From: Mesorhizobium terrae
Lineage (GTDB): Bacteria > Pseudomonadota > Alphaproteobacteria > Rhizobiales > Rhizobiaceae
NCBI RefSeq assembly: GCF_008727715.1
Contig: NZ_CP044217.1
Coordinates: 124,001-188,000, forward strand
Reading direction: 5' to 3'
DNA length: 64,000 nucleotides
Shown here: positions 44,972-64,000 of the stretch, in pieces
Layout of the letters: each line of letters starts with the position of its first letter
Position numbering within the stretch: the first letter of the stretch is position 1
The notes under the pieces: model-generated
Told to the model about the DNA's origin: nothing
What the model saw: only the letters and a program-made list of their open reading frames with translations
Databases searched by the model: none
Made by a program: the position numbers and the translations under genes

Positions 44972-44990
44972 GTGAATAAATTTTTCTCAT
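44972..44990 (-). promoter_or_regulatory. putative LysR operator, site B, upstream of creatinase 1
   Basis: Minus-strand sequence ATGAGAAAAATTTATTCAC contains TGA-N11-TCA, the LysR T-N11-A dyad. It matches the site at 47368-47386 at 15 of 19 positions and the site at 48350-48368 at 14 of 19. It lies 54 bases before the creatinase start codon. Confidence 0.6.
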
Positions 44991-45043
44991 AAAAAAGCCG
45001 TCTGTAACGTCGCGCCATCCAATCGCGCATATGGAGGAGCGAA

Positions 45044-46258
45044 ATGACCGACGACATGTTGCATGTGATAAAATGGCACAACGGCGACAAAGAATACTCG
45101 CCGTTTTCAGATGCCGAGATGAAGCGCCGGCAGGAGGACGTGCGCAGGTGGATGGCCGACAACAAGGTCGACGCGGCGCTTTTCACTTCCTATCATTGCA
45201 TCAACTACTACTCCGGCTGGCTTTACTGCTATTTTGGCCGAAAGTACGGGATGGTCATCGACCATACCAAGGCGACGACGATTTCGGCCGGCATCGACGG
45301 CGGCCAGCCGTGGCGCCGCAGCTTCGGTGACAACATCACCTATACCGACTGGCGCCGCGACAATTTCTACCGTGCCATTCGGCAACTGACTGCGGGCGCT
45401 AAGCGCATCGGCATCGAATTCGACCATGTGTCGCTCGATTTCCGCCGGCAGCTCGAGGAAGCCCTGCCGGGCGTCGAATTCGTCGATGTCGGCCAGCCGT
45501 CGATGTGGATGCGCACGATCAAGTCGCTCGAGGAGCAGAATGTCATTCGCGAGGGGGCGCGCATCTGCGACGTGGGCGGCGCGGCCTGCGTGGCCGCGGT
45601 CAAGGCCGGCGTGCCGGAACACGAGGTGGCGATCGCCACCACAAACGCGATGATTCGGGAGATCGCCAAGTCGCATCCTTTCGTCGAGCTGATGGACACC
45701 TGGACCTGGTTCCAGTCGGGGATCAACACCGACGGCGCGCACAATCCGGTCACCAACCGCGTCGTGCAATCGGGCGACATCCTCTCGCTCAACACGTTCC
45801 CGATGATCTTCGGCTACTACACGGCGCTGGAACGGACGCTGTTCTGCGATCACGTCGACGACGCCAGCCTGGACATCTGGGAAAAGAACGTGGCGGTTCA
45901 TCGTCGCGGGCTGGAACTGATCAAGCCGGGCGCCCGCTGCAAGGATATCGCCATCGAGCTCAACGACATGTACCGGCAGTGGGACCTGCTCAAATATCGC
46001 TCGTTCGGCTACGGCCACTCGTTCGGCGTGCTTTGCCATTACTACGGCCGTGAGGCCGGCGTGGAACTGCGCGAGGACATCGAGACCGAGCTGAAGCCGG
46101 GCATGGTCGTGTCCATGGAGCCGATGGTGATGCTGCCGGAAGGCACGCCCGGCGCCGGCGGCTATCGCGAGCACGACATCCTGATCGTCAAGGAAGACAG
46201 CGCCGAGAACATCACCGGGTTCCCCTTCGGGCCGGAACACAACATCGTGGGCAACTGA
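45044..46258 (+). CDS. creatinase (creatine amidinohydrolase), copy 1
   Basis: 404 residues, the length of Pseudomonas creatinase, and close to it throughout: FTSYHCINYYSGWLYCYFGR, GIDGGQPWRRSFGDN, WFQSGINTDGAHNPVTNR (catalytic His), YYTALERTLFCDH, GYGHSFGVLCHYYGREAG and VVSMEPMVMLPEGTPGAGGY. It is a metal-free member of the pita-bread (M24) fold that hydrolyses creatine to sarcosine and urea. GGAGG lies upstream of ATG 45044 and a putative LysR operator just beyond. It is convergent with the creatininase gene, which supplies its substrate. A paralogue lies at 58292-59527. Confidence 0.93.
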   Translation: MTDDMLHVIKWHNGDKEYSPFSDAEMKRRQEDVRRWMADNKVDAALFTSYHCINYYSGWLYCYFGRKYGMVIDHTKATTISAGIDGGQPWRRSFGDNITYTDWRRDNFYRAIRQLTAGAKRIGIEFDHVSLDFRRQLEEALPGVEFVDVGQPSMWMRTIKSLEEQNVIREGARICDVGGAACVAAVKAGVPEHEVAIATTNAMIREIAKSHPFVELMDTWTWFQSGINTDGAHNPVTNRVVQSGDILSLNTFPMIFGYYTALERTLFCDHVDDASLDIWEKNVAVHRRGLELIKPGARCKDIAIELNDMYRQWDLLKYRSFGYGHSFGVLCHYYGREAGVELREDIETELKPGMVVSMEPMVMLPEGTPGAGGYREHDILIVKEDSAENITGFPFGPEHNIVGN

Positions 46259-46259
46259 A

Positions 46260-46463
46260 ATGGCGCCCTATCTTCCCTTCGATTGCCCGACAAGGGTGAC
46301 GGACCGCAATGGCCGGTCCGTCTCCTATGCCACTCCGGTCTACGGACTGCTGAGCGACCTTATGGGCTGGGTCAGGCTGCGTTTCGGTGCGCCGCCTCCC
46401 CGATCCGGCCAGGGTGCCGACGAAGAAGACGGAAAATGGCCGCCGCCGCCACGTCCGTTCTGA
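46260..46463 (+). CDS. possible small protein after creatinase 1
   Basis: A 67-codon frame whose ATG lies one base after the creatinase stop, so it could be translated by coupling. The product (MAPYLPFDCPTRVTDRNGRS at the start) is basic then Pro-rich and matches nothing I know. It ends before the terminator at 46490. It may be chance. Confidence 0.35.
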   Translation: MAPYLPFDCPTRVTDRNGRSVSYATPVYGLLSDLMGWVRLRFGAPPPRSGQGADEEDGKWPPPPRPF

Positions 46464-46489
46464 AGCGCGAGCAAGCCCCGCAATGAAGA

Positions 46490-46510
46490 AAGGGCCGCGT
46501 CGCGGCCCTT
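46490..46510. terminator. bidirectional terminator between convergent creatinase and creatininase genes
   Basis: Arms AAGGGCCGC and GCGGCCCTT around GTC, with short A and T flanks on either side. The position between two convergent genes fits a shared terminator. Confidence 0.75.
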
Positions 46511-46542
46511 CTGCTGTCGTTCGCGGTCTTTCCCGCCAGGTA

Positions 46543-47316
46543 TCAGAACTCGTTCCTTAGCGCTTCGACGATACCGCCCACGCATACGTCGAGAAGGATC
46601 TCGCCCTTTTCCTTAGACGCCTGCTTCGGGGACGACAGCGTGCCGCTGCGCGGCGTCCATTCCGGTTTCGGCGGATAGACGTCATAGGGCGGGAATGTCG
46701 CCGGCGCGTGGTCGATCGCGCGTTCAAGGTCGACCAGCTGCGGATAGAGCGCCAGCATCAGGGATGTTTCCAGCACGCCGCCATGCTCGATTTCCCAGCC
46801 CGGGAAGCCATCGGGATAAAGTTTCGCGATCGTCGCCTTGTCCACGAAGTCCCAGTAGGAGAGCACGACGACCTTGACGTCGTCGATGCCGCTCCAGCGC
46901 AGTTCCCGCAGGGCAAGATCGATGCCTTCCACGATGAACCATGAGTTCTCGAAATGTCCGTTGAGCAGGCAGATCTTGCGCGCGCCGTGGCGGGCGAACT
47001 CCTTGATGACGTCGCGCAGCGCCGCCACCAGCGTCGCGCCGTCGAGACTGGTGGTGCCGGGCAGATGGTTGCCTCCGCCGGACTTCTGGTGCGACTTGTA
47101 GCCATACGTGAAAGGCGGGGCGACCAGCGCCCCGACTGCCTTGGCGATGCGGCGGGCGAACTCCGTCGGCAGCAGCACGTCCACATGCATCGGCATATGG
47201 CATCCATGCTGCTCCATCGAGCCGATGGGGATGAAAATCGGAACGGAGCCGTCGCGGACCCGGGCGTCGTAGTCGGGCCAGGGCAATTCGGCTGCAAAGA
47301 CTGTGTCGACTGGCAT
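46543..47316 (-). CDS. crnA: creatininase (creatinine amidohydrolase)
   Basis: 257 residues from ATG 47316 (GGAG six bases upstream; the ATG at 47322 has no room for a site). Pseudomonas creatininase has about 260. Metal ligands are seen in IGSMEQHGCHMPMHVDVLLP (Glu, His, Asp) and LNGHFENSW (His, Glu). Other shared blocks are YGYKSHQKSGGGNHLPGTTS, LSYWDFVDKAT and EIEHGGVLETSLMLALYP. It interconverts creatinine and creatine, the first step of the pathway. It is divergent from the LysR gene at 47413, with a putative operator between them. Confidence 0.94.
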   Translation of the reverse strand: MPVDTVFAAELPWPDYDARVRDGSVPIFIPIGSMEQHGCHMPMHVDVLLPTEFARRIAKAVGALVAPPFTYGYKSHQKSGGGNHLPGTTSLDGATLVAALRDVIKEFARHGARKICLLNGHFENSWFIVEGIDLALRELRWSGIDDVKVVVLSYWDFVDKATIAKLYPDGFPGWEIEHGGVLETSLMLALYPQLVDLERAIDHAPATFPPYDVYPPKPEWTPRSGTLSSPKQASKEKGEILLDVCVGGIVEALRNEF

Positions 47317-47367
47317 GAGCATCTCCGTGTTTTCAGGCCGAAGCATGATTGAAGCCGGTCCACGGAT

Positions 47368-47386
47368 ATGAGAAATTTATATTCAT
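47368..47386 (+). promoter_or_regulatory. putative LysR operator, site A, between creatininase and LysR genes
   Basis: ATGAGAAATTTATATTCAT, with the dyad TGA-N11-TCA. It lies 27 bases before the LysR start and 52 bases before the creatininase start, the classic position for autoregulation plus activation of a divergent target. Confidence 0.65.
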
Positions 47387-47412
47387 CATCCTTGCATGAG
47401 AGACGCTAATCC

Positions 47413-48327
47413 ATGCGCAGCTTCACGAACTTCCAGACAGACCTGCTCCGCACCTTCGTTTCCGTCATCGACCTCGGCGCCTTCACGAAAGCCGGCGACG
47501 CGCTCGGCCGAACCCAGCCGGCCGTCTCGCTGCAGGTCAAGCGGCTTGAGGAACTCGTCGGCGCCCCCATCATCAGGCAGGTCGGACGCACGCTGCTGCT
47601 GACCAGCGAAGGCGAGATGCTGCTCAGCTACGCGCGGGAAATCCTGCGCCTCAACGACGAGGCGGCCTCCTATTTCAACCGCTCCAAGATAGCCGGGGTG
47701 ATCCGCGTCGGCCTGCCCAACGACTACGCCGTCGCCTTCCTCCAGGGCGTCATCACGGAATATACGCGCCGGAATCCGGAAATCTCGCTCGAGCTGCATT
47801 GTGGCTGGAGTGCCGAGATACTCGACCGCCTGCGGGCCGACGAACTCGACCTGGCGGTCGCCATGGTCAACAATGAGCGGGCGCAGTACCTGTCGCGGTC
47901 ATGGATCGAGCGGCCGATCTGGGCGGCGGCGGAGACCGCGACGTTCGACCGGAAGAAGGGAATACCGCTGGCGGCGCATCCAGAGGGCTGCGCCTACAGG
48001 GCGCGCATGATCCAGGCGCTTGACGCCGCGCAGATTCGCTGGCGAGTCGCCTATACCGGATCGGGGATCGGCGGGCTCCAGAACGCCGTGGTGAACGGTC
48101 TCGGCGCCAGCGCGCTGACCCGCTACACCATGCTGCCGGGCATGCGCGTCCTCGACGAAATGGACGGGTTTCCGTCGCTGGCCGAAATCCGGGTCGGGCT
48201 GTTCTACAAGCACCCGCGCCTGTCGGACGCCAGCATTCGCCTGGTCAATCACATCATCGCGCGCCTTGACGAAGCAGGCGTATCCAACGACCCGATAAGG
48301 CGTGCCGGGGAACTCGATCGTCAATAA
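47413..48327 (+). CDS. LysR-family regulator of the creatinine locus
   Basis: 304 residues from ATG 47413. The HTH is at residues 10-45 (LLRTFVSVIDLGAFTKAGDA, LGRTQPAVSLQVKRLEELVG), followed by the effector domain (GVIRVGLPNDYAVAFLQGVI, GCAYRARMIQALDA). It is divergent from creatininase and is followed by the first ABC importer operon. Three similar TGA-N11-TCA sites in the region are its likely targets. The inducer might be creatinine or creatine (inference). It is related to the second LysR protein at 57297-58190. Confidence 0.93.
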   Translation: MRSFTNFQTDLLRTFVSVIDLGAFTKAGDALGRTQPAVSLQVKRLEELVGAPIIRQVGRTLLLTSEGEMLLSYAREILRLNDEAASYFNRSKIAGVIRVGLPNDYAVAFLQGVITEYTRRNPEISLELHCGWSAEILDRLRADELDLAVAMVNNERAQYLSRSWIERPIWAAAETATFDRKKGIPLAAHPEGCAYRARMIQALDAAQIRWRVAYTGSGIGGLQNAVVNGLGASALTRYTMLPGMRVLDEMDGFPSLAEIRVGLFYKHPRLSDASIRLVNHIIARLDEAGVSNDPIRRAGELDRQ

Positions 48328-48349
48328 GCAGGATAAATGCAAAAATTTT

Positions 48350-48368
48350 TAGAATTAATTTTTCAAAT
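48350..48368 (-). promoter_or_regulatory. putative LysR operator, site C, upstream of ABC importer 1
   Basis: Minus-strand ATTTGAAAAATTAATTCTA agrees with site B at 14 of 19 positions. An adjacent AT-rich stretch at 48337-48355 (ATGCAAAAATTTTTAGAAT) partly repeats the pattern, so two subsites may be present. It lies 52 bases before the binding protein start. Confidence 0.5.
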
Positions 48369-48419
48369 GTATTGGCCCTTCATAGCCTGAGATAGGCCAA
48401 AAAATGGAAGGGGAACTCC

Positions 48420-49556
48420 ATGACCGATAATCTCTCGTCATCCCGCCGCGTCAGCCGACGCGGCCTTCTTCGCGGCGGTGCCGTTCTTGGCGGCGGCATG
48501 CTCGCAACGCCCTATCTCAGCCGGCTTGCCTTCGCCGCACCGGTCGAGCTCACGATGCTTGCCTGGTATGGCCATGCCGAGCCCGACGTGGTGAGCGAAT
48601 TCGAGGCGGAGAACAACGTCAAGTTCAAGCCGAAATACTATACCGGCGGCGACAACATGCTGGGCCTCATATCGCAGTCGCCGCCCGGCACGTTCGACCT
48701 GATCCTGTCGGACGCCGAATACGTGCAGCAGCTCAACGCCGCCGGCTATATCGAGAAGCTCGACCCGGCCGACTATCCCTTCAACGACTTCTTCCCCGAA
48801 TTCCAGCATTTCCCGGGTCATTGGCAGGACAACGACCTTTATTCGGTCATCACCCGGTTCGGCTTCCTCGGCGTCGCCTACAACACCGAGGCGATCACCG
48901 AAAAGGAGGCGTCGAGCTACAACATCTACTGGGCCGAGAAGCTGAAGGGCAAGGTGGGGCATTTCGACTGGCATCTGCCCAACCTCGGCCAGATCAGCCT
49001 GCTCAACGGAAACGCCAGCCCCTACGATATCGACGCGGCGGCATGGCAGGCGGTGCAGGACAAGACGATGACGCTGCGCCCGCAGATCGGCGGCTTCTTC
49101 GACTATGGCGGCACGTTCTCCTCGCTGCAGAACGGCCAGATGCTGGCGATGGCGGGCATCGGCGACTGGATCACCGGCACGCTCGAGAGGAGCGGAGCCA
49201 AGGTGCGCAGCGTCATCCCCGAAGAAGGCGGGCTGCAGTTCACCGAATCCTTCTCCATCGGCAAAGGCTCGCAGAAGGCGGATCTCGCCAAGAAATGGAT
49301 CCAGTACATCACCTCGGCCAAGGGCCAGGTGAAGTCGGCCAACATGGCGGCCTATCCTTGCCTCATCCCGAACAAGAAGGGCTGGGAGCTTCTGGCAAAG
49401 GAGACGCCTGCCGAAGCCAAGCGGCAGGGCATGCTGCTCAACGAGCCGAACGCGATGGATCTCATCCGCGCCGGTCGCATAAAATACCGGCAATTGCCGG
49501 TCCAGCAGAGCCTTGAGGACTGGAACGACTTCTGGTCGGAATACAAGGGCTCCTGA
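48420..49556 (+). CDS. ABC transporter binding protein, spermidine/putrescine type (importer 1), Tat signal
   Basis: 378 residues. The N terminus has a twin-arginine signal (VSRRGLLRGGAVLGGGMLAT) with cleavage near FAAP. The mature part is a PotD/PotF-like type 2 binding protein: ELTMLAWYGHAEPDVVSEFE, FDLILSDAEYVQQLNAAGYI and KGSQKADLAKKWIQYITS. It is followed by two permeases and an ATPase and is placed between creatininase/LysR and the second creatinase locus, so creatinine, creatine or another guanidino compound is the likely ligand (inference). Start ATG 48420 with GGAAGGGG upstream. Confidence 0.9.
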   Translation: MTDNLSSSRRVSRRGLLRGGAVLGGGMLATPYLSRLAFAAPVELTMLAWYGHAEPDVVSEFEAENNVKFKPKYYTGGDNMLGLISQSPPGTFDLILSDAEYVQQLNAAGYIEKLDPADYPFNDFFPEFQHFPGHWQDNDLYSVITRFGFLGVAYNTEAITEKEASSYNIYWAEKLKGKVGHFDWHLPNLGQISLLNGNASPYDIDAAAWQAVQDKTMTLRPQIGGFFDYGGTFSSLQNGQMLAMAGIGDWITGTLERSGAKVRSVIPEEGGLQFTESFSIGKGSQKADLAKKWIQYITSAKGQVKSANMAAYPCLIPNKKGWELLAKETPAEAKRQGMLLNEPNAMDLIRAGRIKYRQLPVQQSLEDWNDFWSEYKGS

Positions 49557-49584
49557 CCGCGGCCAATGGCGGACCGAAGACCAG

Positions 49585-49626
49585 GCAGGGCGGGCGGCGA
49601 CGTTGCCCGCCCTGCTTGCCTTTTTT
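49585..49626 (+). terminator. intrinsic terminator/attenuator after binding protein 1
   Basis: Arms GCAGGGCGGGC and GCCCGCCCTGC around nine bases, followed by TTGCCTTTTTT. It lies between the binding protein and its first permease, so read-through would set a high binding-protein to permease ratio. Confidence 0.85.
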
Positions 49627-49666
49627 AAACCTGAAACCGACCGATCCGCGTCCGAACGGGACAGAA

Positions 49667-50512
49667 ATGCGAAAATCGATCACGCTCTACGGCCTGACAT
49701 TCTCAATGCCGATGCTGGTGTGGCAGCTGCTGTTCTTCCTGGCGCCGCTGCTCTTCCTGATCGCGCTCAGCTTCTGGTCGGTGAAAAATTTCCGCATGGT
49801 CCCGGATTTCAATCCGGACAACTGGACGCGGATGCTGGGCCGCGGGGTGTTCTGGGAAGCCTATTTCCGCACGCTTCTGCTTTCCGCCGCGGCCGCCGGT
49901 CTCACCAGCGTCCTGGCGTTTCCCTGCGCCTACGGCATCGCTTTCAAGCTGTCGGAATCGGCGCGGCGCTGGGCGGTGTTCCTGATGGTCATTCCCTTCT
50001 TCACCAGCTACCTCGTGCGCGTCTATTCCTGGCAGATATTCCTTTCCGACCACGGCATATTCAACGCCCTGTTCGCCAAGATCGGCCTTGGTCCGTTCGG
50101 GATGCTGAACTCCGTCTTCGGCGTGATGGTCGGTTATCTCACGCTGAGCTTCCCGCTCGTGGTGCTTCTGCAACTGTTCAGCCTCGTCTTCGTCGACAGG
50201 ATGCTGATCGAGGCCGCGCACAATCTGCGCTGCGGCCGCCTGCGCACCGTGTTCGAAGTGGTCATTCCGGCCGCGCGGGTCGGCCTCGTCATCGCGGCGC
50301 TGTTCTGCTTCATCCTGACGTTCGGTGATTTCGTCAGCCCGCTATATCTCGGCGGTGGCGATCCCCCGACATTGTCCATCCTGATCACCGACACGACGAA
50401 ATCCGGCCAGCAATGGCCGCGCGCGTCGGTGATCGCGCTTGCCATGATCGCCACGCTGCTCGCCGTGGCCTTCGCCGCCGTCAGCTACGCCTATCGGGAG
50501 AGGGGGCGATGA
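49667..50512 (+). CDS. ABC transporter permease, PotB type (importer 1)
   Basis: 281 residues from ATG 49667 (start MRKSITLYGLTFSMPMLVWQ). Six transmembrane helices, with the coupling loop LIEAAHNLRCGRLRTVFEVVIPA and the PotB-like end FVSPLYLGGGDPPTLSILI. It works with the permease at 50509 and the ATPase at 51342. Its stop overlaps the next start (ATGA). The terminator at 49585-49626 lies just upstream. Confidence 0.92.
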   Translation: MRKSITLYGLTFSMPMLVWQLLFFLAPLLFLIALSFWSVKNFRMVPDFNPDNWTRMLGRGVFWEAYFRTLLLSAAAAGLTSVLAFPCAYGIAFKLSESARRWAVFLMVIPFFTSYLVRVYSWQIFLSDHGIFNALFAKIGLGPFGMLNSVFGVMVGYLTLSFPLVVLLQLFSLVFVDRMLIEAAHNLRCGRLRTVFEVVIPAARVGLVIAALFCFILTFGDFVSPLYLGGGDPPTLSILITDTTKSGQQWPRASVIALAMIATLLAVAFAAVSYAYRERGR

Positions 50513-51345
50513 ACGATTTCAACCGCAACCGGCTGATCGACTGGGCGCTGAAGATCTACATAGTGCTGTCGTTCGGCTTCATCTTCGCGCCGATCGCCGC
50601 GAGTTTCGTCTTCTCGCTCAATGTCGATCGCTTCCCGTCGCTGCCGCTCGGCGGATTCTCGACCGTCTGGTACGAGACGGTCTGGAACGACCCGCTGGTC
50701 TGGCAGGGGCTGCGCAACACGCTGGTCGTCGGCGTGGTGGCATCCGTGGTGTCGACCGCAATCGGGTTCGGCGCGGCCTACACCGACTTCCGATACAGAT
50801 TCTTCGGCAAGCCGGTCTATGTCGCGCTGGCGCTGCTGCCGCCGACCATCCCCGTGGTCATTCTCGGACTTGCGATGCTGGCCTTCCTGTCCAACGTCAA
50901 CCTGTCCGGCGCGACCTATTCGGTCGTCATCGCCCATGTCGTCATGTGCGCTCCCTTCGCCATGGCGATCTGCCGGCTGCGGCTGTCGCAGATGGACCCG
51001 TCGCTGGAAGCGGCGGCGTGGAATCTGGGCGCATCCGAATGGATGGCGATGCGCCATGTGATCGTGCCCTTCTGCCGGCCGGCGCTATTCGCCGCTGTGT
51101 TCATCACCATGGCGGTCTCCTTCGACGAGTTCGCCGTCGCCTGGTTCGTTTCCGGCCTGAACGAGACGCTGCCGGTCAAGGTGCTCGGCTTTCTCCAGGG
51201 CCAGGTCAGCCCGCGCATCAACGTCATCGGCACCTTCGTCTTCATCGTTTCCATGACGCTGGTGGTCGTGGCCCAGGTCCTTCTCATGAAACGCGGAGCC
51301 GCGCCGGCTGCGGCAGTCAAAGACACCGGAGTAGTCACACAATGA
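50509..51345 (+). CDS. ABC transporter permease, PotC type (importer 1)
   Basis: 278 residues from ATG 50509. It has the PotC-type helices and the EAA loop DPSLEAAAWNLGASEWMAMRHVIVP, with FDEFAVAWFVSGLNETLPVK after it. It overlaps both neighbours by ATGA-type junctions, so the three genes are translated as a block. Confidence 0.92.
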   Translation: MNDFNRNRLIDWALKIYIVLSFGFIFAPIAASFVFSLNVDRFPSLPLGGFSTVWYETVWNDPLVWQGLRNTLVVGVVASVVSTAIGFGAAYTDFRYRFFGKPVYVALALLPPTIPVVILGLAMLAFLSNVNLSGATYSVVIAHVVMCAPFAMAICRLRLSQMDPSLEAAAWNLGASEWMAMRHVIVPFCRPALFAAVFITMAVSFDEFAVAWFVSGLNETLPVKVLGFLQGQVSPRINVIGTFVFIVSMTLVVVAQVLLMKRGAAPAAAVKDTGVVTQ

Positions 51346-52436
51346 CCGACCAGGCTCTCGTCGTCTTCGACGGCGTCGCGAAGCGGTTCGGCGCTTTCGT
51401 CGCCGTGGAGAAGATGAATCTCGACATCCGCAAGGGCGAGTTCCTTGCCATCATGGGTTCGAGCGGCTGCGGCAAGACGACCACGCTGCGTATGCTGGCG
51501 GGTCTCGAGGCGCCGAGCGAGGGCGAGATACGGCTCGCCGGCAAACGCATCAACGACCTGCCGACCTGGCAACGCGACACCCCGATGGTGTGGCAGAGCC
51601 TGGCCCTGTTTCCGTTCCTGACGGTGCGCGAGAACGTCGAGTTCAGCCTGCGCATGCGCGGCATCGAAAAAAGCGAGCGCCGGCGGCGCGTCGACAAATG
51701 GCTCGAACGGATGCAGATCGCCGAGTTCGCCGATCGCAACGTGGCGCATCTCTCGGGCGGCCAGCGCCAGCGCGTGGCGCTGGCGCGCTCGCTGGTCACG
51801 GAGCCCGAGATCCTGCTTCTGGACGAGCCGCTTTCGGCGCTGGACGCACATCTCAAGGTGCGCATGCAGACGGTCCTGTCGAACCTTCAGCGCGAGCTCG
51901 GCATCACGTTCGTCTACGTCACTCATAGCCAGTCGGAGGCGTTCTCGATGGCGGACCGCGTCGTCATCATGAGCCGCGGCCGCATCGAGCAGATCGGCGA
52001 CCCGCAGGAGATCTACCGCGCGCCGCGCACCAGATTCGTCGCCGAATTCCTCGGCTCATCGAACATCTTCGGCGGCAGCGTCACGGCCGTCGGCAACGGG
52101 GCGGTCCGCGTCGCGACGCCCGCCGGCGAATTTGATATCGCGGCCAATCCGGTAAAAGCCTTGGCGAAGGGCGACAAGGCGACCTTCGTCGTCTCTGACG
52201 ACCGCGTGCAACTCTCCAACGAGAAGCCGGCCGAGGGCATCAATGCGGTGCGGGCCTCCGTGGTAGGCGAGGAGTTCGTCGGCGCCACCGCCGTGATCCA
52301 TCTCGAAGGTCCCGACGGCATCGAATTGAAAGCGCAGAAGAGCCATGACGAGCTCGAACATCTCAACCTGGCGCACAAAGCGGACGTCTGGCTGACCTGG
52401 CGGCCGGAAGCCGGCCATATCCTGCCAGGGGAATAA
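51342..52436 (+). CDS. ABC transporter ATP-binding protein, PotA type (importer 1)
   Basis: 364 residues. Walker A GSSGCGKTTTLRMLAGLE, signature LSGGQRQRVALARSLV, Walker B ILLLDEPLSALDAHLK and the H-loop TFVYVTHSQSEAFSM, followed by a C-terminal TOBE domain (about residues 240-360) as in PotA/FbpC-type ATPases. It energises importer 1. A Q-loop reads WQSLALFPFLTV, with Trp in place of the usual Phe before Gln. Confidence 0.93.
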   Translation: MTDQALVVFDGVAKRFGAFVAVEKMNLDIRKGEFLAIMGSSGCGKTTTLRMLAGLEAPSEGEIRLAGKRINDLPTWQRDTPMVWQSLALFPFLTVRENVEFSLRMRGIEKSERRRRVDKWLERMQIAEFADRNVAHLSGGQRQRVALARSLVTEPEILLLDEPLSALDAHLKVRMQTVLSNLQRELGITFVYVTHSQSEAFSMADRVVIMSRGRIEQIGDPQEIYRAPRTRFVAEFLGSSNIFGGSVTAVGNGAVRVATPAGEFDIAANPVKALAKGDKATFVVSDDRVQLSNEKPAEGINAVRASVVGEEFVGATAVIHLEGPDGIELKAQKSHDELEHLNLAHKADVWLTWRPEAGHILPGE

Positions 52437-54063: not shown

Positions 54064-54089
54064 GGCCGATGGCCGAAGGGAGGAAATCG

Positions 54090-55208: not shown

Positions 55209-55212
55209 AGTC

Positions 55213-56445
55213 ATGACCGCTGCCGATATCGAGCGCATCAACGTCTTCATGGCCGTGCGGCGCGCCGAACGGCCGGCGCGACGGGCCGCTCTGTCGCTTG
55301 CGCTACCACTGGTCGTCTTTCTTCTCGTCGTCTTCGTGGCGCCAATCCTCTATCTGCTCGTCACCGCGGTCGGGAACCCGGAGACACGCGAGGTGCTGCC
55401 GCGGACGCTTGTCGCACTTGAAGGCTGGGATGGCGCGTCGACTCCCGCGGAGCCCGTCTACGCGGCCTTTGCCGCAGACTTGAAAGTCGCCAAGGACAAC
55501 AGCACGGCCGCCTTGGTCGGCAAGCGCCTCAACTACGAGATTTCCGGTATGCGCGGTCGCATCCTAGCCGCCGCCCGCATGGTCGACCGGCTCGACGTCG
55601 GTCCTTACAAGGAACGATTCCTCGAACTCAACAAAGACTGGGGATCGCCGGACGTCTGGGCGGTGATCAAGCGCAACGGCTCCGCCTTCACTCCGTTTTA
55701 CCTGCTGAGCGCCGTCGATCTGAAGCAGAACCCCGACAATTCGCTCGGACGAGTCGAGGGAGACCAGGCGATCTTTCTCGATGTCCTGGGACGGACGCTG
55801 TTCGTGGCGGCCGTGGTGACCCTGTTCACGCTTGTCCTCGGCTATCCCGTCGCCTACGTCCTCACCATCGCGCCGAAGGCGGTCGCGGGGATCATGATGC
55901 TGATGGTGCTCCTGCCGCTATGGACGTCGTTGCTCGTGCGCACGACTGCCTGGGTCGTCCTCCTGCAATCGAACGGCGTCATCAACGATGCTCTAATGGC
56001 CCTGCACATTACCAGCGAAAGGCTCCAGTTCATCTTCACGCGTGTTGGCACGGTCACGGCGATGACGCACATCCAGCTTCCCTTCACCATCCTGCCGATC
56101 TACAGTGTCATGCGTTCAATTCCGACCACGCAACTGCGCGCCGCCCGCTCGCTCGGCGCGCCCCCGATCTCGGCGTTCTGGCGGATCTATGCGCCTCAGA
56201 CACTGCCCGGTGTCGTCGCGGGGTGCCTGATGACGTTCATCCTTTCGCTCGGCTACTACATCACTCCGGCGCTCGTGGGCGGGCCACGTGACCAGATGGT
56301 CTCGAACTTCATCGCCGTCTTCATCAACCGCGACCTCAACTGGGGGCTGGCTTCGAGCCTTGGCGTCGTCTTGCTTGTCGTGACGCTCGCTATCTACCTG
56401 TTGTTCCTGCGCCTCGTCGGCGCTGACAAGATCAAGCTGGGGTGA
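55213..56445 (+). CDS. ABC transporter permease, PotB type with large periplasmic insertion (importer 2)
   Basis: 410 residues, about 120 longer than a usual PotB. After a cytoplasmic start and TM1 (LSLALPLVVFLLVVFVAPIL) comes a hydrophilic stretch of roughly 140 residues (about residues 55-195: LEGWDGASTPAEPVYAAFAA, KRLNYEISGMRGRILAAARM, DWGSPDVWAVIKRNGSAFTP) before TM2. It should fold in the periplasm. The rest is normal, with the coupling loop TTQLRAARSLGAPPISAFWR. A subfamily with this insertion exists in rhizobial PotB-like proteins; the insert may help dock the binding protein. Confidence 0.9.
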   Translation: MTAADIERINVFMAVRRAERPARRAALSLALPLVVFLLVVFVAPILYLLVTAVGNPETREVLPRTLVALEGWDGASTPAEPVYAAFAADLKVAKDNSTAALVGKRLNYEISGMRGRILAAARMVDRLDVGPYKERFLELNKDWGSPDVWAVIKRNGSAFTPFYLLSAVDLKQNPDNSLGRVEGDQAIFLDVLGRTLFVAAVVTLFTLVLGYPVAYVLTIAPKAVAGIMMLMVLLPLWTSLLVRTTAWVVLLQSNGVINDALMALHITSERLQFIFTRVGTVTAMTHIQLPFTILPIYSVMRSIPTTQLRAARSLGAPPISAFWRIYAPQTLPGVVAGCLMTFILSLGYYITPALVGGPRDQMVSNFIAVFINRDLNWGLASSLGVVLLVVTLAIYLLFLRLVGADKIKLG

Positions 56446-56449
56446 CGCC

Positions 56450-57274
56450 ATGTGGTTGCCTTCCTACGCGACTCCTTTTGAACGGTTGACACGGACGCTT
56501 GTGGTGGCGTTCGCCGTCGCCGTACTGCTATTCCTGATCGCACCGTTGTTCATCATCGTGCCGTTGTCCTTTTCGAAGGATCCGTTCTTCACACTTCCGG
56601 TCCGAGAATATTCGTTACGCTGGTATGCGGATTTCTTCGGCAACACGCGATGGATGAACGCCATCTTCAACAGCGCCGTCGCGGCGGTGATGACAACCGT
56701 GCTGGCGACGACGCTCGGCACGCTGGCGGCCCTGGGAATCTCACGTCCCGATTTTCCGGCACGCCGGCTCATCATGGCGCTCTTGATTTCACCGATGATC
56801 GTGCCGATCGTCATCGTAGCGGTCGGCAGCTATCTGTTCTTCGGCCAGTTCGGCCTGACCAATACGCGCACCGGCTTGGTGCTGGCGCATACTGCCCTGG
56901 CCACGCCATTCGTCGTGATCACGGTCACGGCGACGCTGTCAACTTACGACACCAACCTGACCCGCGCGGCGCTTAGCCTCGGCGCCCCGGCGATGTCCGC
57001 CTTCTTCCGCGTGACCTTGCCGAACATTTTGCCAGGCGTGGTTTCCGGCGCCATCTTCGCCTTCGCCATTTCCTTCGACGAGGTCGTGGTGGCATTGTTC
57101 ATGACGGCTGCCGAGCAGCGCACACTGCCGGTCCAGATGTTTTCCGGCATCCGCGACCAGATCAACCCGACCATCATGGCGGCGGCAACGCTGCTGCTGG
57201 CTCTTTCGATCACCCTATTCGCGGTCCTGGCCATGCTGACGAGGCAGCGCGGCAAGCCGACGACCTCGGCTTGA
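56450..57274 (+). CDS. ABC transporter permease, PotC type (importer 2)
   Basis: 274 residues, 4 bases after the first permease. Helices and the EAA loop NLTRAALSLGAPAMSAFFRV, then FAISFDEVVVALFMTAAEQRTLPVQMF, are typical of PotC. It is the last gene of importer 2. Its end faces the end of the LysR gene, with only 22 bases between the two stop codons. Confidence 0.92.
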   Translation: MWLPSYATPFERLTRTLVVAFAVAVLLFLIAPLFIIVPLSFSKDPFFTLPVREYSLRWYADFFGNTRWMNAIFNSAVAAVMTTVLATTLGTLAALGISRPDFPARRLIMALLISPMIVPIVIVAVGSYLFFGQFGLTNTRTGLVLAHTALATPFVVITVTATLSTYDTNLTRAALSLGAPAMSAFFRVTLPNILPGVVSGAIFAFAISFDEVVVALFMTAAEQRTLPVQMFSGIRDQINPTIMAAATLLLALSITLFAVLAMLTRQRGKPTTSA

Positions 57275-57296: not shown

Positions 57297-58190
57297 TCAA
57301 ACCGCCTTAGCGTCGCCGTCGTTCGCCACGAACATGTCGGCGAAGCGAGCTGCGAAACTTTGCGCCACCGCCGATCGCTTTCGATCAGGCACGACATAGA
57401 TGCCGACCACGACGTCGGCCAGACGAGGCAGGTGGCTCGAAGGCCCCATGATCCGCAATGCCGAGGGAATGATCCTGCGCGCCAGTACGGTCATGCCGAA
57501 CCCGGCGCCCACAGCCGCTTCCAGGCCGGACAGGCTCGGGCTCGTGTAGACGATCTCGAAATTGCGTCCGTCACGCTGCAACGCCGTCAGCATGTTGCGG
57601 CGATAGAGACAGCCTTCGGGATAGCAGACAATGCGAAGCCGTTTTCTGTCATCGACGTCTTCCGGAACAGCATCGAGCGGTTCCGCGCCGACCCAGGCCA
57701 GCGGTTCCTTCCAGGTCATGAACGCGCCTTCCGAGGGCCCGTCGGCCGTCATCGCCACCACAATATCGAACTGGCCGTTGCGCAAGCCGCGCAACAGGTT
57801 GTGGGAAAGATCGCAGACGACGTCGAAGGTGATATCGCCGCCGTCCCGGGCAAGAGTCGCCATCAACTTAGGCAGGAAGTGGTCCGCATAGTCGTTGGGG
57901 ATGCCCAGCCGCAGCTTGCCTTTGCTGTCGCGGTTGGAAAGCTTCAGCATCATCTCGTCGTTGAGCGCCAGAATCTGACGGGCATATCCTGCAACTATTT
58001 CCCCATGCTCGGTCGGTTGTGCGCCGCCTTCCTTGGCGAACAGCGAAACGCCCAGCAATTCCTGCAGCTTCTTCATCTGCAGGCTGATCGCCGGTTGGGT
58101 GCGGCCAAGCTGTTCACCGGCGCGCGTATAACCGCGTAGGTCGATAACCGTCACGAAGGCACGAAGCAGGTCAGTAGGGATGCTGCGCAT
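57297..58190 (-). CDS. LysR-family regulator, second of the locus
   Basis: 297 residues from ATG 58190 (much longer in-frame starts extend into the creatinase 2 gene and are rejected). The HTH is LLRAFVTVIDLRGYTRAGEQ, LGRTQPAISLQMKKLQELLG; the effector domain shows LRLGIPNDYADHFLPKLM and CYPEGCLYRRNMLTALQRDG. These blocks closely match the LysR protein at 47413-48327, so the two are paralogues. It is downstream of creatinase 2 on the same strand and convergent with importer 2. Likely targets are creatinase 2 and/or importer 2. Confidence 0.92.
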   Translation of the reverse strand: MRSIPTDLLRAFVTVIDLRGYTRAGEQLGRTQPAISLQMKKLQELLGVSLFAKEGGAQPTEHGEIVAGYARQILALNDEMMLKLSNRDSKGKLRLGIPNDYADHFLPKLMATLARDGGDITFDVVCDLSHNLLRGLRNGQFDIVVAMTADGPSEGAFMTWKEPLAWVGAEPLDAVPEDVDDRKRLRIVCYPEGCLYRRNMLTALQRDGRNFEIVYTSPSLSGLEAAVGAGFGMTVLARRIIPSALRIMGPSSHLPRLADVVVGIYVVPDRKRSAVAQSFAARFADMFVANDGDAKAV

Positions 58191-58272: not shown

Positions 58273-58291
58273 TCGCAGTTCAGACCGCCCG

Positions 58292-59527
58292 TCAGGGCTT
58301 GACGATATTGTGCTCCGGTCCGAATGGGAACTTGGTGATGTTTTCCGAACTGTTCTCGCCGATCACGAGGATATCGTGCTCGCGATAGCCGCCGGCGCCG
58401 GTCATTCCTTCCGGCAAGGTCACCATCGGCTCCATCGAAACGACCATGCCCGGCTGAAGGACGGTGTTGATGTCCTCGCGCAGTTCGACGCCGGCTTCGC
58501 GGCCATAGTAGTGTGACAGCACGCCGAAGGAATGTCCGTAGCCGAACGAGCGATAGCCGAGCAGACCGTGGCTTCGGTAGATGTCGTTCAACTCGGTCGC
58601 CACGTCGCCACAGCGAGCACCGGGTTTCAGGAGTTCGAGGCCACGGCGGTGCACCTTGCAATTGACCTCCCAAATGCGCAGGTGTTCATCGCTTGCGTGG
58701 TCAAGGAACAGGGTGCGCTCCAGCGCGGTGTAGTAGCCCGAAATCATCGGGAAGCAGTTGAGCGAAAGGATGTCGCCTTTCTGAACTTTGCGCGACGTCA
58801 CTGGATTATGGGCGCCATCGGTGTTGATGCCGGACTGGAACCAGACCCAGGTGTCCATCAATTCGGCGTGCGGGAAGGTCTTCGCGATATGGCGCACCAT
58901 TGCCTGCGTGCCCGCAAGCGCCACCTCGTATTCCGGAACGCCTTCGCGGATCGCATCGCGGACCGCTTCGCCGCCGATGTCGGCGGTGCGCGCGCCTTCC
59001 TTGATCAGGGCGATTTCCTCCGCCGACTTGATCGTGCGCAGCCACATCGTGGGCGAGCCGATATCGACGAACTCCACCTCCGGAAAGGAGTCCTGCAAAA
59101 GCTTGCGCAACTCGATATTGACGTGGTCGAACTCGATGCCGAGACGCTTCACGCCCGGCAGCGACTCCTGCAGCGCGTGGAAGTAGTTGTCGCGACGCCA
59201 GTCGGTATAGGTGACGTTGTCGCCGAACGTGCGGCGCCAAGGCTGGCCTGCGTCGATGCCGGCGGACACGGAAATCGCCTTCTGCGGCGTGACGACGAAG
59301 GCATAGCGGCGTCCGAAGTAGCAGTACAGGAAGTCGGAGAAGTAGCAGATGTTGTGATAGGAAGTGAGGATCGCGGCGTCGAGCTTCAGCTCGGTCAGGA
59401 TCTTACGCAGACCGTCCTGCCGGCGCGTCATTTCCGCCGCGCTGAAGGTCGGAACGGCCTTTTCGCCGTTGTGCATGTTCTGCAGCCGAAGCAATTCGTT
59501 CGGCATGCCTTTGGCATAGACGTTCAT
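58292..59527 (-). CDS. creatinase (creatine amidinohydrolase), copy 2
   Basis: 411 residues. It shares all creatinase blocks and appears even closer to Pseudomonas creatinase than copy 1: LTSYHNICYFSDFLYCYFGR, GIDAGQPWRRTFGDN, WFQSGINTDGAHNPVTSRKV, LSLNCFPMISGYYTALERTL, GYGHSFGVLSHYYGREAG and ENITKFPFGPEHNIVKP. It converts creatine to sarcosine and urea. It is followed by a terminator and the second LysR gene, and preceded 209 bases upstream by sdaA on the same strand, the end of the sarcosine oxidase operon. Confidence 0.94.
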   Translation of the reverse strand: MNVYAKGMPNELLRLQNMHNGEKAVPTFSAAEMTRRQDGLRKILTELKLDAAILTSYHNICYFSDFLYCYFGRRYAFVVTPQKAISVSAGIDAGQPWRRTFGDNVTYTDWRRDNYFHALQESLPGVKRLGIEFDHVNIELRKLLQDSFPEVEFVDIGSPTMWLRTIKSAEEIALIKEGARTADIGGEAVRDAIREGVPEYEVALAGTQAMVRHIAKTFPHAELMDTWVWFQSGINTDGAHNPVTSRKVQKGDILSLNCFPMISGYYTALERTLFLDHASDEHLRIWEVNCKVHRRGLELLKPGARCGDVATELNDIYRSHGLLGYRSFGYGHSFGVLSHYYGREAGVELREDINTVLQPGMVVSMEPMVTLPEGMTGAGGYREHDILVIGENSSENITKFPFGPEHNIVKP

Positions 59528-59736
59528 CGTTCCATTTCCTTTGCATCGAAATCAGGGTGGTCGAGCTCGGAAGGGACTATAGAAAGGCCGCGCCGCTGCA
59601 GGAAATTAGAAGTCGCTATCAATCAATTACAGTTTTTAATCGCGCTGCCGCCGCCGCCGCCAAGAGAGGTATCTACGGCGGGCCGTGCGAGGCGCACCGC
59701 CACCTCACGCGTGCTGCCAAAGACAACACCCGACCC

Positions 59737-61119
59737 TCAGCATTCCGGCAGATTTACTGCGAGGCCTCCCAGGCTGGTCTCCTTGAACTTTACGCTCATC
59801 TCCTCGCCGGTCTGGCGCATCGCTTCGATGCAGTTGTCGAGCGGCATGAAGTGCGTACCGTCACCACGCAGCGCAAGCGAGGCGGCGGCTACGGCTTTGG
59901 TCGCTCCTATCCCGTTGCGTTCGATGCAGGGAACCTGCACAAGTCCCCGCACCGGATCGCAAGTCATGCCGAGATGATGCTCAAGCGCGATCTCGGCGGC
60001 GTTTTCGATCTGCTCAGGCGTGCCGCCGAGCACGGCGCAGAGGCCTGCCGCCGCCATGGCTGCCGCAGACCCAACTTCGCCCTGACAGCCGGCTTCGGCA
60101 CCGGAAATCGAGGCGTTGTGCTTGATCAGCCCGCCGATGGCCGCGGCAGTGAGCAGGAAGTCGGGGACCTTGGTGGGTTCGGCGCCGGCGCAGTGGTCGA
60201 GGTAATAGCGCAATACTGCTGGGACGACGCCCGCAGCCCCATTGGTAGGCGCCGTCACAACCTGTCCTCCGGCGGCGTTCTCCTCGTTGACGGCCATGGC
60301 GTATACGCTTAGCCAATCCGACGCGGCGTGCGGCTGGCTCGAATTGCCCAGCCGTTCGGCAAGAAGCTGCTGATGGATTCCCCTCGCCCTCCGTCGCACG
60401 TGCAATCCTCCAGGCAACTCGCCGTCCCGCGCCATGCCCCGGTCGATGCTTGTGTTCATCACCGACCAGATGTGCGCCAGCCCCCGCTCGACCTCAGGAG
60501 CAGGGAGGACAGCGATCTCGTTCTCGCGCTTCATCGCAGCGACGGAAAGCCCGGTCTCGCGCGACATGGCGAGCATCGAAGCGGCGCTGTCGAAGGGATA
60601 CGGCCATTGCGCCAAGCCGCTAGCCGCCATCGTGGGCGCCTGGCGTTCGGCGGCGGTGACGACGAAGCCGCCGCCGATGGAATAGTAGGTTTCCGCCAGG
60701 ACGATGCTGCCGTGAACGTCCAGCGCGGCGAACACCAGTCCGTTGGCGTGACCGGGCAGCGGTGGCCCGTAGTCGAAGATGATGTCGGCGGCGGGATCGA
60801 AAGCGAGCGGCGGCAAGCTCCGCGAACGCAGCCGGCGGCTTTCATGAAGCGCTACGAGCTCGCGCTCGGCTCGGTCTGGGTCCAGATCGGCGGGCAGGTA
60901 GCCAAGCAGGCCGAGCGCCACGGCGCGGTCCGTGGCATGGCCCTTGCCGGTGAAGGCGAGGGAGCCGTGCAGCGTCGCCATGAGCCTTGCGGAGCGCTGT
61001 CTTTCCGGGGCGTCGCGCAGCAGATCGAGAAACCGCGCCGCCGCCGTCATCGGGCCCATCGTGTGCGATGACGAAGGCCCAACGCCGATCTTGAAGACAT
61101 CGAAAACACTCACGAACAT
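59737..61119 (-). CDS. sdaA: L-serine ammonia-lyase (iron-sulfur, single chain)
   Basis: 460 residues from ATG 61119, giving the usual start [20 protein letters not shown]. Both halves are present: the N-terminal regulatory-type domain with [10 protein letters not shown] and the C-terminal catalytic domain with cysteines in [20 protein letters not shown] and [18 protein letters not shown], which bind the 4Fe-4S cluster. It deaminates L-serine to pyruvate. Placed after glyA and soxG, it finishes carbon recovery from the glycine and methylene-THF released by sarcosine oxidase. Confidence 0.95.
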
Positions 61120-61180
61120 GCCATACCTCATCGACCACGCGGTCCGCTCCGCGCGCGTCAGGCCGGATGATTGTCAGCGT

Positions 61181-62437
<1,257 letters not shown>

Positions 62438-62456
62438 AGCGTTATCCTTTCAAAGA

Positions 62457-63014
62457 TCAGGCGAGTTCGGCAGCAAGTTCCCTGCAGCCGGTTTCGAGCA
62501 GCTGGGCGATGTGGGAGGCGAAGCTGTTCCAGACATCGATCCGAAAGCGGTCGGCCGCGTCGCGCCACAGCACGACGGTCGCGCCGTCGAACAGAGTGCG
62601 GCGGCCTTCGCCGGACGGGATCGTAGCGATGTCGCGCGGGCAGCCGAGCGTGAGCAGTTCGGCCGCCTTCGGCCCCTCGGCCAGCAGCGTGACCTCGCGT
62701 CCGGAAATGTCGACCAGGCTGTGCGGATGGGCGGCGGCCAACGCCGTGCATGCTGCGGTGAGCCGGGCGGCGTCCCTAGTGGGCGCGTGGATCGTCCATT
62801 CGTCCGGGCCGAGGCGGATCGCCTCGATCTCGCCGACGGCGGCGCGGCGGCCGATGCGGTCGGGCAGGGCAAGCCCGAGTGCGGCGCTCAGTGCCGCGAC
62901 GGCGTTTCCCCTGGCGCGCAGCGACAGCCGCCCCTCGGTCGGCGAGACACTGAGCTGTGCGGCCTTCGTCTCGATCACGACGCCGGGATTCAGGGAAGAA
63001 ATCTCGCTGCTCAT
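62457..63014 (-). CDS. soxG: sarcosine oxidase, gamma subunit
   Basis: 185 residues, the common SoxG length. Family blocks visible are IETKAAQLSVSPTEGRLSLR, EAIRLGPDEWTIHAP, HSLVDISGREVTLLAEGPKA and LFDGATVVLWRDAADRFRID, with the aminomethyltransferase-like fold. It is one of the four subunits of heterotetrameric sarcosine oxidase (SoxBDAG). It starts 12 bases after the soxA stop. Confidence 0.94.
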   Translation of the reverse strand: MSSEISSLNPGVVIETKAAQLSVSPTEGRLSLRARGNAVAALSAALGLALPDRIGRRAAVGEIEAIRLGPDEWTIHAPTRDAARLTAACTALAAAHPHSLVDISGREVTLLAEGPKAAELLTLGCPRDIATIPSGEGRRTLFDGATVVLWRDAADRFRIDVWNSFASHIAQLLETGCRELAAELA

Positions 63015-63026
63015 CTTCGCCTCCGG

Positions 63027-64000
63027 TCAGATCTTCAGGCGGGTGTTTTCGGGATCGACGAAGACGGTCCCGGTGACGGTGGCGGCGATGGTGCGGCCGG
63101 GCATCGGGATGTAGACGGTTTCGCCCATCCGCTCGTGCCCACCCTCGACGAGGGCCAGCGCGATCGGCCGGCCGGCCGCGACCGAGTGGTAGGACGAGGT
63201 GACGTGTCCCACCATCTTCATCGGGATCGGCTGCTTGGGGTCGAAGACGATCTGCGCGCCTTCCTCCAGCTTCGAGCGGTCCTCGGTCAGCAGGCCGACG
63301 AGGTGCCTGCGGCCCTGGGCCGTCAGGTCGGGGCGGGCCAGGCCACGCTTGCCGACGAAGTCGGGCTTGTTCTTGCCGACCGCCCAGCCCATGCCGGCGT
63401 CGTAGGGCGTGACCGTGCCGTCCGTGTCCTGGCCGACGATGATGTAGCCCTTCTCGGCGCGCAGCACGTGCATCGTCTCGGTGCCGTAGGGCGCGATGCC
63501 GTATTGCTGGCCGGCCTGCCATAGGGTCTCCCACAACTTGCGGCCGAGCGGCGCGGGCACGTTAACCTCGAAGCCGGTCTCGCCCGTGAAGCTGACCCGG
63601 AACAGCCGGGCCGGCATGCCTGCCACCGTGCATTCCAGGCACGACATATGCGGGAAGGCTTCTTCGGTCAGCTCGATCCCTTCTACGAGCGGCGCCAGCA
63701 GCTTCGCGGCGTTGGGTCCGTTCAGTGCGATGGTGGACCATTGCTCCGTCGTCGAGGTCAGCCAGACGTTCAGCCCGGGCCATTCGGTCTGGAGGTAGTC
63801 CTCCATCATGTTCAAGACGCGCGCGGCGCCGCCGGTGGTGGTGGTGACGTGGAAGCGGTCCTCGGCCATGCGCCCGATCACGCCGTCGTCGCGGATGTAG
63901 CCGTCGTCGCCGAGCAGCAGGCCGTAGCGGCAGCGTCCGACGCCGAGCTTGGCCCATGGGTTGGTGTACATTCGCTCCATGAAGGTCACGGCATCGGGGC
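63027..64000 (-). CDS. soxA: sarcosine oxidase, alpha subunit, C-terminal part (cut by window edge)
   Basis: The last 323 residues of SoxA, open through the right edge. The visible part is the aminomethyltransferase-like (GcvT) domain: FMERMYTNPWAKLGVGRCRYG, LLLGDDGYIRDDGV, TTTTGGAARVLNMMEDYLQ, STTEQWSTIALNGPNAAKLL and FTGETGFEVNVPA. In the full enzyme this domain binds tetrahydrofolate and captures formaldehyde from sarcosine demethylation as 5,10-methylene-THF. The NAD-binding half should lie to the right, as should soxB and soxD. Confidence 0.96.
   Translation of the reverse strand, partial: PDAVTFMERMYTNPWAKLGVGRCRYGLLLGDDGYIRDDGVIGRMAEDRFHVTTTTGGAARVLNMMEDYLQTEWPGLNVWLTSTTEQWSTIALNGPNAAKLLAPLVEGIELTEEAFPHMSCLECTVAGMPARLFRVSFTGETGFEVNVPAPLGRKLWETLWQAGQQYGIAPYGTETMHVLRAEKGYIIVGQDTDGTVTPYDAGMGWAVGKNKPDFVGKRGLARPDLTAQGRRHLVGLLTEDRSKLEEGAQIVFDPKQPIPMKMVGHVTSSYHSVAAGRPIALALVEGGHERMGETVYIPMPGRTIAATVTGTVFVDPENTRLKI

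Follow-up and report, generated by a model that had tools for sequence, protein, structure and literature searches.

A stretch of 64,000 nucleotides from Mesorhizobium terrae (positions 124001-188000 of contig NZ_CP044217.1, here called C1; the whole stretch is hereafter the window) carries genes for the breakdown of creatinine between 45.0 and 64.0 kb. We consider it very likely that they form a plasmid-borne catabolic block of three separable modules, which leads from creatinine to pyruvate. Module 1 (creA1, crnA, LysR1 and importer 1) would most likely take up creatinine and break it down by way of creatine to sarcosine and urea, and module 2 (importer 2, LysR2 and creA2) would most likely import and hydrolyze creatine. 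Module 3, which consists of soxBDAG, glyA, sdaA and its own AraC/DJ-1-type regulator, would carry sarcosine to glycine and methylene-tetrahydrofolate (methylene-THF), then to serine, and finally to pyruvate and ammonia. Related operators located before creA1, crnA/LysR1, the solute-binding protein gene of each importer (SBP1 and SBP2) and creA2 are probably the targets of the two LysR regulators, with module 3 lying outside this operator system, and the urea would probably leave the cell.

The genome consists of two contigs (6.02 Mb). C1, which has 293,638 bases and carries the creatinine block, is read as a repABC-type plasmid, judging from RepC alone, because the sole RepC match of the genome is found there (PF03428, 228.8 bits). 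The order of the genes from left to right is creA1(+), crnA(-), LysR1(+), importer 1(+), importer 2(+), LysR2(-), creA2(-), sdaA(-), glyA(-), soxG(-) and soxA(-). To the right of the window end, in the adjoining stretch L004, the remainder of soxA is followed by soxD, soxB, the divergent AraC/DJ-1-type regulator and a transposase. The initial annotation had listed the creatininase, two creatinases, two four-gene ABC importers, two LysR regulators, sdaA, glyA, soxG and soxA, and all of them are present near the positions it gave.

Creatininase and creatinases

The hydrolases of the first two steps are as follows.

45044-46258 (+): creA1, creatinase, 92.1% identity to PDB 7yto (creatine amidinohydrolase)
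46543-47346 (-): crnA, creatininase, TIGR04448 371.9 bits (cut-off 235)
58292-59527 (-): creA2, second creatinase, 67.3% identity to PDB 1chm (Pseudomonas creatinase)

CrnA aligns to the structure 1j2t over its residues 15-267 and keeps the motifs EQHG, D and NGHxEN, which we take to be the metal-ligand motifs of creatininase. CreA1 scores 898.8 bits against 7yto and 65.8 bits against its best non-creatinase match, and CreA2 scores 639.2 bits against 7yto, 620.1 bits against 1chm and 80.7 bits against the best non-creatinase. Setting the histidine of DGAHNPV as residue 232, the nine positions that we assume to form the active site of 1chm (F62, R64, H232, Y258, E262, H324, R335, E358 and H376) are identical in both proteins, and 19 of the 22 positions compared are the same in all four aligned sequences, the exceptions being 34, 92 and 319. 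Other M24 enzymes (DoeA, DddP) were considered and rejected because the scores of both proteins are far under the cut-offs of those families. With the TIGR04448 match above its cut-off and full-length similarity to two solved creatinases, the identities proposed in the initial annotation hold, and the sequence gives good support to the assignment of CrnA as creatininase and of CreA1 and CreA2 as creatinases, which would convert creatine to sarcosine and urea.

A different substrate for the second creatinase should nevertheless be weighed. According to this alternative, the creatine step of the creatinine route belongs to creA1, and creA2 and importer 2 handle another guanidino acid. In its favor, CreA2 shares only 66.3% identity with CreA1, the creA2 gene is accompanied by a separate regulator and a separate importer of the GABA/opine group, and two Shinella plasmids carry module 2 with no creatininase in the stretches that were fetched. 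However, CreA2 is nearer to 1chm than CreA1 is (67.3% vs. 64.0%), it retains the nine presumed active-site residues, and the related operators described below suggest a common signal. We therefore regard this alternative as improbable and prefer creatine as the substrate of both modules.

In the creatinase tree, 7yto falls within the rhizobial creA1 clade. As 7yto is an Alcaligenes enzyme, the position of this solved creatinase inside a rhizobial clade would reflect either gene transfer or a misnamed source strain. One study describes an A. faecalis creatinase, possibly the same enzyme (PMC7568399).

From sarcosine to pyruvate

The lower part of the route is encoded by a cassette that crosses the right end of the window.

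59737-61131 (-): sdaA, L-serine ammonia-lyase, TIGR00720 592.1 bits (cut-off 345.1)
61181-62437 (-): glyA, serine hydroxymethyltransferase, NF000586 643.3 bits (cut-off 335)
62457-63014 (-): soxG, sarcosine oxidase gamma, TIGR01375 164.2 bits (cut-off 143.95)
63027 to about 66017 (-), cut by the window end at 64000: soxA, sarcosine oxidase alpha, TIGR01372 1572.6 bits (above cut-off)
66014-66316, outside the window: soxD, TIGR01374 122.1 bits (above cut-off)
66327-67580, outside the window: soxB, TIGR01373 709.2 bits (above cut-off)

The initial annotation, which had only soxG and part of soxA in view, proposed that the sequence be extended to the right in search of soxB and soxD; both lie directly adjacent, and the B, D, A and G subunits of a heterotetrameric sarcosine oxidase thus stand in one gene run, all above their TIGR cut-offs. 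Every enzyme of the route from creatinine to pyruvate is now identified by sequence, as the complete order of reactions that had been proposed implies. The C-terminal part of SoxA matches GcvT. This GcvT-like part is folate-binding, and the oxidation of sarcosine yields methylene-THF, one of which is joined with one glycine to form one serine. Because of this 1:1 ratio, the methyl carbon would need no outside sink, and the route would be self-closing without purU or folD. In two related sox cassettes (Agrobacterium pLN1 and Salipiger pPABY1), purU is found beside sdaA, and creA2 occupies that place here.

Three more full-length soxA genes above the cut-off are present on the large contig (C2 at 2691126, 3003128 and 3878047); therefore, sarcosine oxidation in this genome need not rely on the plasmid.

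Importers

Both importers are of the PotABCD type (importer 1, 48420-52436(+); importer 2, 53011-57274(+)).

48420-49556 (+): SBP1, PotD-like solute-binding protein, with a twin-arginine-like leader judged by eye
49616-50512 (+): importer 1 permease, PotB type
50509-51345 (+): importer 1 permease, PotC type, start chosen from the match position
51342-52436 (+): importer 1 ATPase, PotA type, start chosen from the match position
53011-54063 (+): SBP2, solute-binding protein of the GABA/opine/polyamine group, start chosen by us
54069-55208 (+): importer 2 ATPase, TIGR01187 372.4 bits (cut-off 355.6)
55213-56445 (+): importer 2 permease, PotB type
56450-57274 (+): importer 2 permease, PotC type

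No subunit of either importer reaches the PotA, PotB, PotC or PotD equivalog cut-offs, which rules out an assignment as polyamine equivalogs; the importer 2 ATPase alone passes the cut-off of the broader TIGR01187 subfamily. SBP2 groups with GABA-sensor, agropine and mannopine binders, and its best solved match is 8jv1, which is named a spermidine/putrescine-binding protein and for which a literature search returned no paper. From their neighborhood alone, we infer that importer 1 carries creatinine and importer 2 carries creatine.

Two points weigh against these substrates: both solute-binding proteins score below the curated family cut-offs, and none of the solved relatives listed is named for creatine or creatinine. 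It might accordingly be argued that both are general polyamine or GABA-type importers that stand beside the enzymes by chance, and the best family matches are indeed polyamine and GABA/opine transport proteins. However, SBP1 scores 51.8 bits against the PotD model, the cut-off of which is 582, and all 25 long loci of relatives have importer 1 together with creatininase (see below). We consider a chance association to be very improbable, and a dedicated role for the two importers in creatinine and creatine uptake is preferred.

Conservation in relatives

A creatininase scan of the species-genome collection gave 77 loci, of which one (L050) was set aside. In 46 of the 76 loci that were kept, the creatininase is at least 70% identical to that of the window. 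LysR1 and all of the importer 1 genes are found in 37 of these 46 close loci, a creatinase that satisfies the coverage rule in 40, and soxB in 9, counts that should be read with the flanks of at most 10 kb and the many short contigs in mind. When only the 25 close loci of at least 20 kb are considered, LysR1 and importer 1 occur in all 25, creatinase in 23 and soxB in 6. Module 2, scored as at least four of its five genes, is present in only 2 of the 46. The module of creatinase, creatininase, LysR and importer is mostly retained in close relatives.

Partial matches to the block occur in 239 records of the plasmid collection, and in no record does a single region span 80% of it. Once the flanks are read, all modules are contiguous on the Mesorhizobium plasmids pB2-1-8 (NZ_CP083953) and MesoLj131a2 (NZ_AP023248), and this same gene set rules out a block unique to the window. 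Shinella plasmids provide one region with module 1 alone and two with module 2 alone. The grouping had been called unusual in the initial annotation. This opinion is not sustained by the two Mesorhizobium plasmids, on which the same enzymes, importers and LysR genes are contiguous, by the nine close loci with soxB, or by the glyA-soxBDAG-sdaA-purU clusters described in the available text of PMC3534580. Creatininase above the cut-off is found in 32 of 394 sampled genomes of the family and in one of eight in the genus (this genome), an occurrence that is expected of an acquired trait.

The locus set aside is a metagenome contig labelled Acidobacteria, in which positions 9101-10526 of L050, at the contig end, are 100% identical to window positions 46821-48246 (1,426 bases). 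The identity stops inside LysR1, and no other match to the window was found in this contig at E 1e-20; misbinning, an assembly chimera or a real junction could explain it.

Regulators and operator sites

Three regulators and five operator-like sites, the latter ranked by a weight matrix, are considered here.

47413-48327 (+): LysR1, best NCBIfam match LrhA, below its cut-off
About 57297-58190 (-): LysR2, best NCBIfam match LrhA, below the cut-off, start chosen from match position and sequence
Within 67528-68703, outside the window, divergent: AraC/DJ-1-type regulator, DJ-1/PfpI and AraC domains (Pfam)
44948-44992 (+), core 44959-44982: operator-like site before creA1, third-best in the window, 41.0 bits
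47364-47408 (-), core 47374-47397: operator-like site between crnA and LysR1, best, 52.6 bits
48326-48370 (+), core 48337-48360: operator-like site before SBP1, second-best, 49.8 bits
59594-59638 (-), core 59604-59627: weak operator-like site before creA2, fourth-best, 11.0 bits
52878-52922 (+): weak operator-like site before SBP2, fifth-best, 9.7 bits

Upstream alignments of relatives revealed a core, AT-N6-AT-N10-AATT. The upstream regions were taken from 55 sources, with the requirement that the gene pass identity limits and begin near the query start. With the window included, the core precedes creA1 in 38 of 41 regions (0.4 expected), crnA in 39 of 53 (0.6 expected), SBP1 in 36 of 48 (0.1 expected) and creA2 in 4 of 7 (0.1 expected), the expectations being drawn from shuffles that ignore the relatedness among the regions. 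In the window itself, the core pattern occurs six times vs. 0.80 expected, and four of these occurrences precede creA1, crnA/LysR1, SBP1 and creA2. Upstream of soxB, the core was found in none of 14 relatives (the window not among them), and in the stretch that holds the soxB of this strain (L004), the best matrix site anywhere reaches only 2.0.

The training set of the 45-base matrix comprised 110 sites from module 1, all outside the window and picked by the core pattern. The creA1, crnA and SBP1 sites are homologous to these training sites; therefore, only the creA2 and SBP2 sites test the matrix idea. When the columns of the matrix were shuffled 1000 times, no matrix placed both creA2 and SBP2 in the top five, and 22 placed at least one of them there. 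In relatives, 116 of 122 sites of at least 20 bits are at most 250 bases upstream of crnA, SBP1 or a creatinase gene, and the remaining six point to no clear new target. In the two Shinella plasmid regions with module 2 only, the creA2 sites score 18.3 (first in its region) and 9.4 (second, behind a site of 10.9 elsewhere), and the SBP2 sites score 2.8 and 1.9 (third in both).

A shared operator in module 2 must be set against three observations. The strict core is found before SBP2 in none of seven upstream regions, window included; the two module 2 sites (11.0 and 9.7 bits) stand little apart from the sixth, unrelated site of the window (9.6); and a site of 12.5 bits at C1:2450 has no evident gene behind it. 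The last was the single site of at least 9 bits on C1 outside the window, among the fetched stretches scanned without the joints between them. We conclude that module 1 has a strong shared predicted operator and the sox module has none, and that module 2 probably has a weaker operator related to that of module 1. LysR1 and LysR2 are the putative binders of these sites, judging from their position, and the pairing of each regulator with its sites and inducers is likewise a prediction. The AraC/DJ-1-type regulator of module 3 scores 186.4 bits against the GbdR choline-metabolism model NF052371, under the cut-off of 480.

In Shinella sumterensis, a site of 27.0 bits (L103:8819, (-)) is located in the interval between creA1 and a methyl-accepting chemotaxis gene that is divergent and annotated approximately 0.8 kb away, which offers a faint hint of chemotaxis linked to the creatinine module.

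Assembly of the block

On the two Mesorhizobium plasmids, the gene content matches that of the block described here (enzymes, importers, LysR genes, soxBDAG, glyA and sdaA), and a GlxA-type regulator is also present. However, their order is module 2, module 1 and sox, whereas that of the window is module 1, module 2 and sox inverted, and their SoxA, SoxD and SoxG represent a more distant variant. The proteins of modules 1 and 2 are 82-94% identical between the window and these plasmids, and the values for module 3 are 86% for SoxB, 78-81% for GlyA, 75-77% for SdaA, 67-69% for SoxA, 69-73% for SoxD and 41-43% for SoxG.

To follow the linkage of sox genes with creatininase, the SoxA tree retained 41 of 48 rows, 11 of them labelled creatininase-linked (the one of the window included), and the SoxB tree had 47 rows, 15 of them labelled. 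The linked loci L009, L018, L033 and L067 were dropped from the SoxA set as partial, the linked G030 and L024 were not included, and L127 and L130, in which creatininase lies on another contig of the same genome, were scored as unlinked. The label requires seven changes on the SoxA tree and eight on the SoxB tree, and well-supported branches force at least six on each. The SoxA of the window falls in a clade of eight, in which the other seven are not linked to a true creatininase: five are from genomes without a creatininase above the cut-off, and two are on plasmids with none annotated in the 7-kb flanks. In the creatinase tree (73 rows), the bootstrap of which is not fully settled, creA2 groups with Mesorhizobium copies, and creA1 pairs with a metagenome-assembled alphaproteobacterium, outside the starred group of four Mesorhizobium copies.

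Because the sox clade of the window is otherwise unlinked to true creatininase, we believe that the block was probably assembled separately from the Mesorhizobium block. Two findings temper this belief. First, the label shows more clustering than shuffled labels do, with 18 of 500 as low for SoxA and 0 of 500 for SoxB; therefore, the linkage is partly inherited. Second, the nearest sox relative (G272, SoxA 92%) lies approximately 3 kb from a distant creatininase-family gene. The clustering, the grouping of creA2 and the similarity of modules 1 and 2 would all agree with a single joining of the three modules in an ancestor common to the Mesorhizobium plasmids, followed by rearrangement or by replacement of the sox cassette. 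However, the low identities of SoxA and SoxG, the number of forced changes, the otherwise unlinked sox clade and the position of creA1 are difficult to reconcile with a single joining, which we consider rather unlikely. Separate assembly from ready modules is the more probable explanation.

The distant gene near the G272 cassette (L138:9126) is 30% identical to CrnA, below the creatininase cut-off, and may belong to another feeder into sarcosine. A further candidate feeder module into sarcosine adjoins a sox-glyA-sdaA cassette on Aminobacter plasmid pSR7 (L151:1-7305); it comprises genes for an N-carbamoyl-amino-acid hydrolase, a Zn hydrolase and an ABC importer with LysR.

Fate of urea

The initial annotation suggested a search for urease genes to the right, and no full-length urease alpha was found there or elsewhere in the genome (TIGR01792, best 30.9 bits vs. 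a cut-off of 680). The whole genome likewise has no match to UreG, and its best scores for urea carboxylase (567.5 vs. 1303.85) and allophanate hydrolase (215.2 vs. 511.05) are under the cut-offs. One match counts against the absence of urease: PF00449 reaches 25.8 bits (Pfam cut-off 23) in a 549-residue frame, over 46 positions (59-104 of 121), and coincides with the weak TIGR01792 match. Given its short span, the frame is taken for a related amidohydrolase.

In the genus, a urease alpha match at E <= 4.3e-294 is present in each of the seven other genomes sampled. Among the 32 creatininase carriers, five are without a strong match (G000, this genome, 3.1e-7; G059, 9.8e-6; G290, 5.4e-6; G334, 9.9e-8; and G209, none), and the other 27 have E values of 1.7e-208 or better. 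In the sampled family, 326 of 394 genomes are above the urease cut-off and 68 are under it. A tendency of creatininase carriers to have, or to lack, urease is thus rejected, and because the urease-poor carriers occur at about the family rate, the use of creatinine seems not to need urease. The absence of the known urea routes suggests that one of the three nitrogens of creatinine is probably recovered, as ammonia via SdaA, and that two leave as urea. The earlier expectation that the bacterium gains both carbon and nitrogen from creatinine consequently stands for the carbon and for this one nitrogen, and probably fails for the nitrogen of urea, for which no known route scores above its cut-off.

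Taking these results together, we tentatively suggest, as a scenario with slightly less than an even chance of being correct, that a single operator code unites two creatinase-importer modules and two LysR paralogs in a plug-in creatinine/creatine regulon, which plasmids have joined independently to different sox cassettes, and that this host, with no recognizable urease, takes the carbon of sarcosine and gives the urea to its neighbors.

Relation to known systems

The pathway is known and the arrangement is recurrent; the new detail is the modular assembly, the operator and the missing urease. In the available text of PMC3534580, the conversion of creatine to sarcosine and urea is described, as are glyA-soxBDAG-sdaA-purU clusters leading to pyruvate. 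The Arthrobacter and Corynebacterium sp. U-96 clusters covered there likewise convert sarcosine to pyruvate via a tetrameric sarcosine oxidase, GlyA and SdaA, but they contain purU, whereas the window has creA2 beside sdaA, and strain Rue61a is reported to grow on creatine and sarcosine and not on creatinine. According to the accessible part of PMC8864220, Corynebacterium glutamicum ATCC 14067 uses creatine and creatinine as nitrogen source with a linked transporter, as proposed here, but through CreT, CrnT and AmtR instead of ABC importers and LysR regulators, and Roseobacter denitrificans is stated to use creatine without CreT. The transfer of soxBDAG on an island has been described in Colwellia (PMC3691474, in the text available).

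The close named relatives of the soxBDAG-glyA-sdaA genes of the window are those of Agrobacterium pLN1 and Salipiger pPABY1 (SoxA 88% and 85%), in which purU and betaine-type transport genes are close to the cassette and the annotation shows no creatininase for 7 kb on either side of the match. In the open-licence literature, we found no published account of such ABC importers or of such a LysR operator. The block provides rhizobia with a creatinine route that is complete and transferable, for which ABC importers and operator sites can now be proposed as candidates, and it illustrates how plasmids assemble a catabolic chain from ready modules. Its predictions are that importer 1 serves creatinine, that importer 2 serves creatine, that LysR proteins bind at five sites and that urea is left over.

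Neighboring genes

Two transposases bracket a region that contains an oxygenase, importers and the creatinine block.

32336-34225 (+): Tn3-family transposase, left side
36607-38756 (+): VanA-type Rieske oxygenase and reductase, a possible N- or O-demethylase
38778-40859 (+): 693-residue frame with a DUF2817 domain (residues 47-392, 324.7 bits) and an ABC ATPase domain (459-618)
69053-70612 (+), outside the window, right side: transposase with Mu-type C-terminal and helix-turn-helix domains (Pfam), presumably IS21-like

The oxygenase lies just to the left of the DUF2817-ATPase frame, after which come a family 3 solute-binding protein and two permeases; this arrangement corresponds to an amino-acid-type importer in which the ATPase is fused to a peptidase-like domain.

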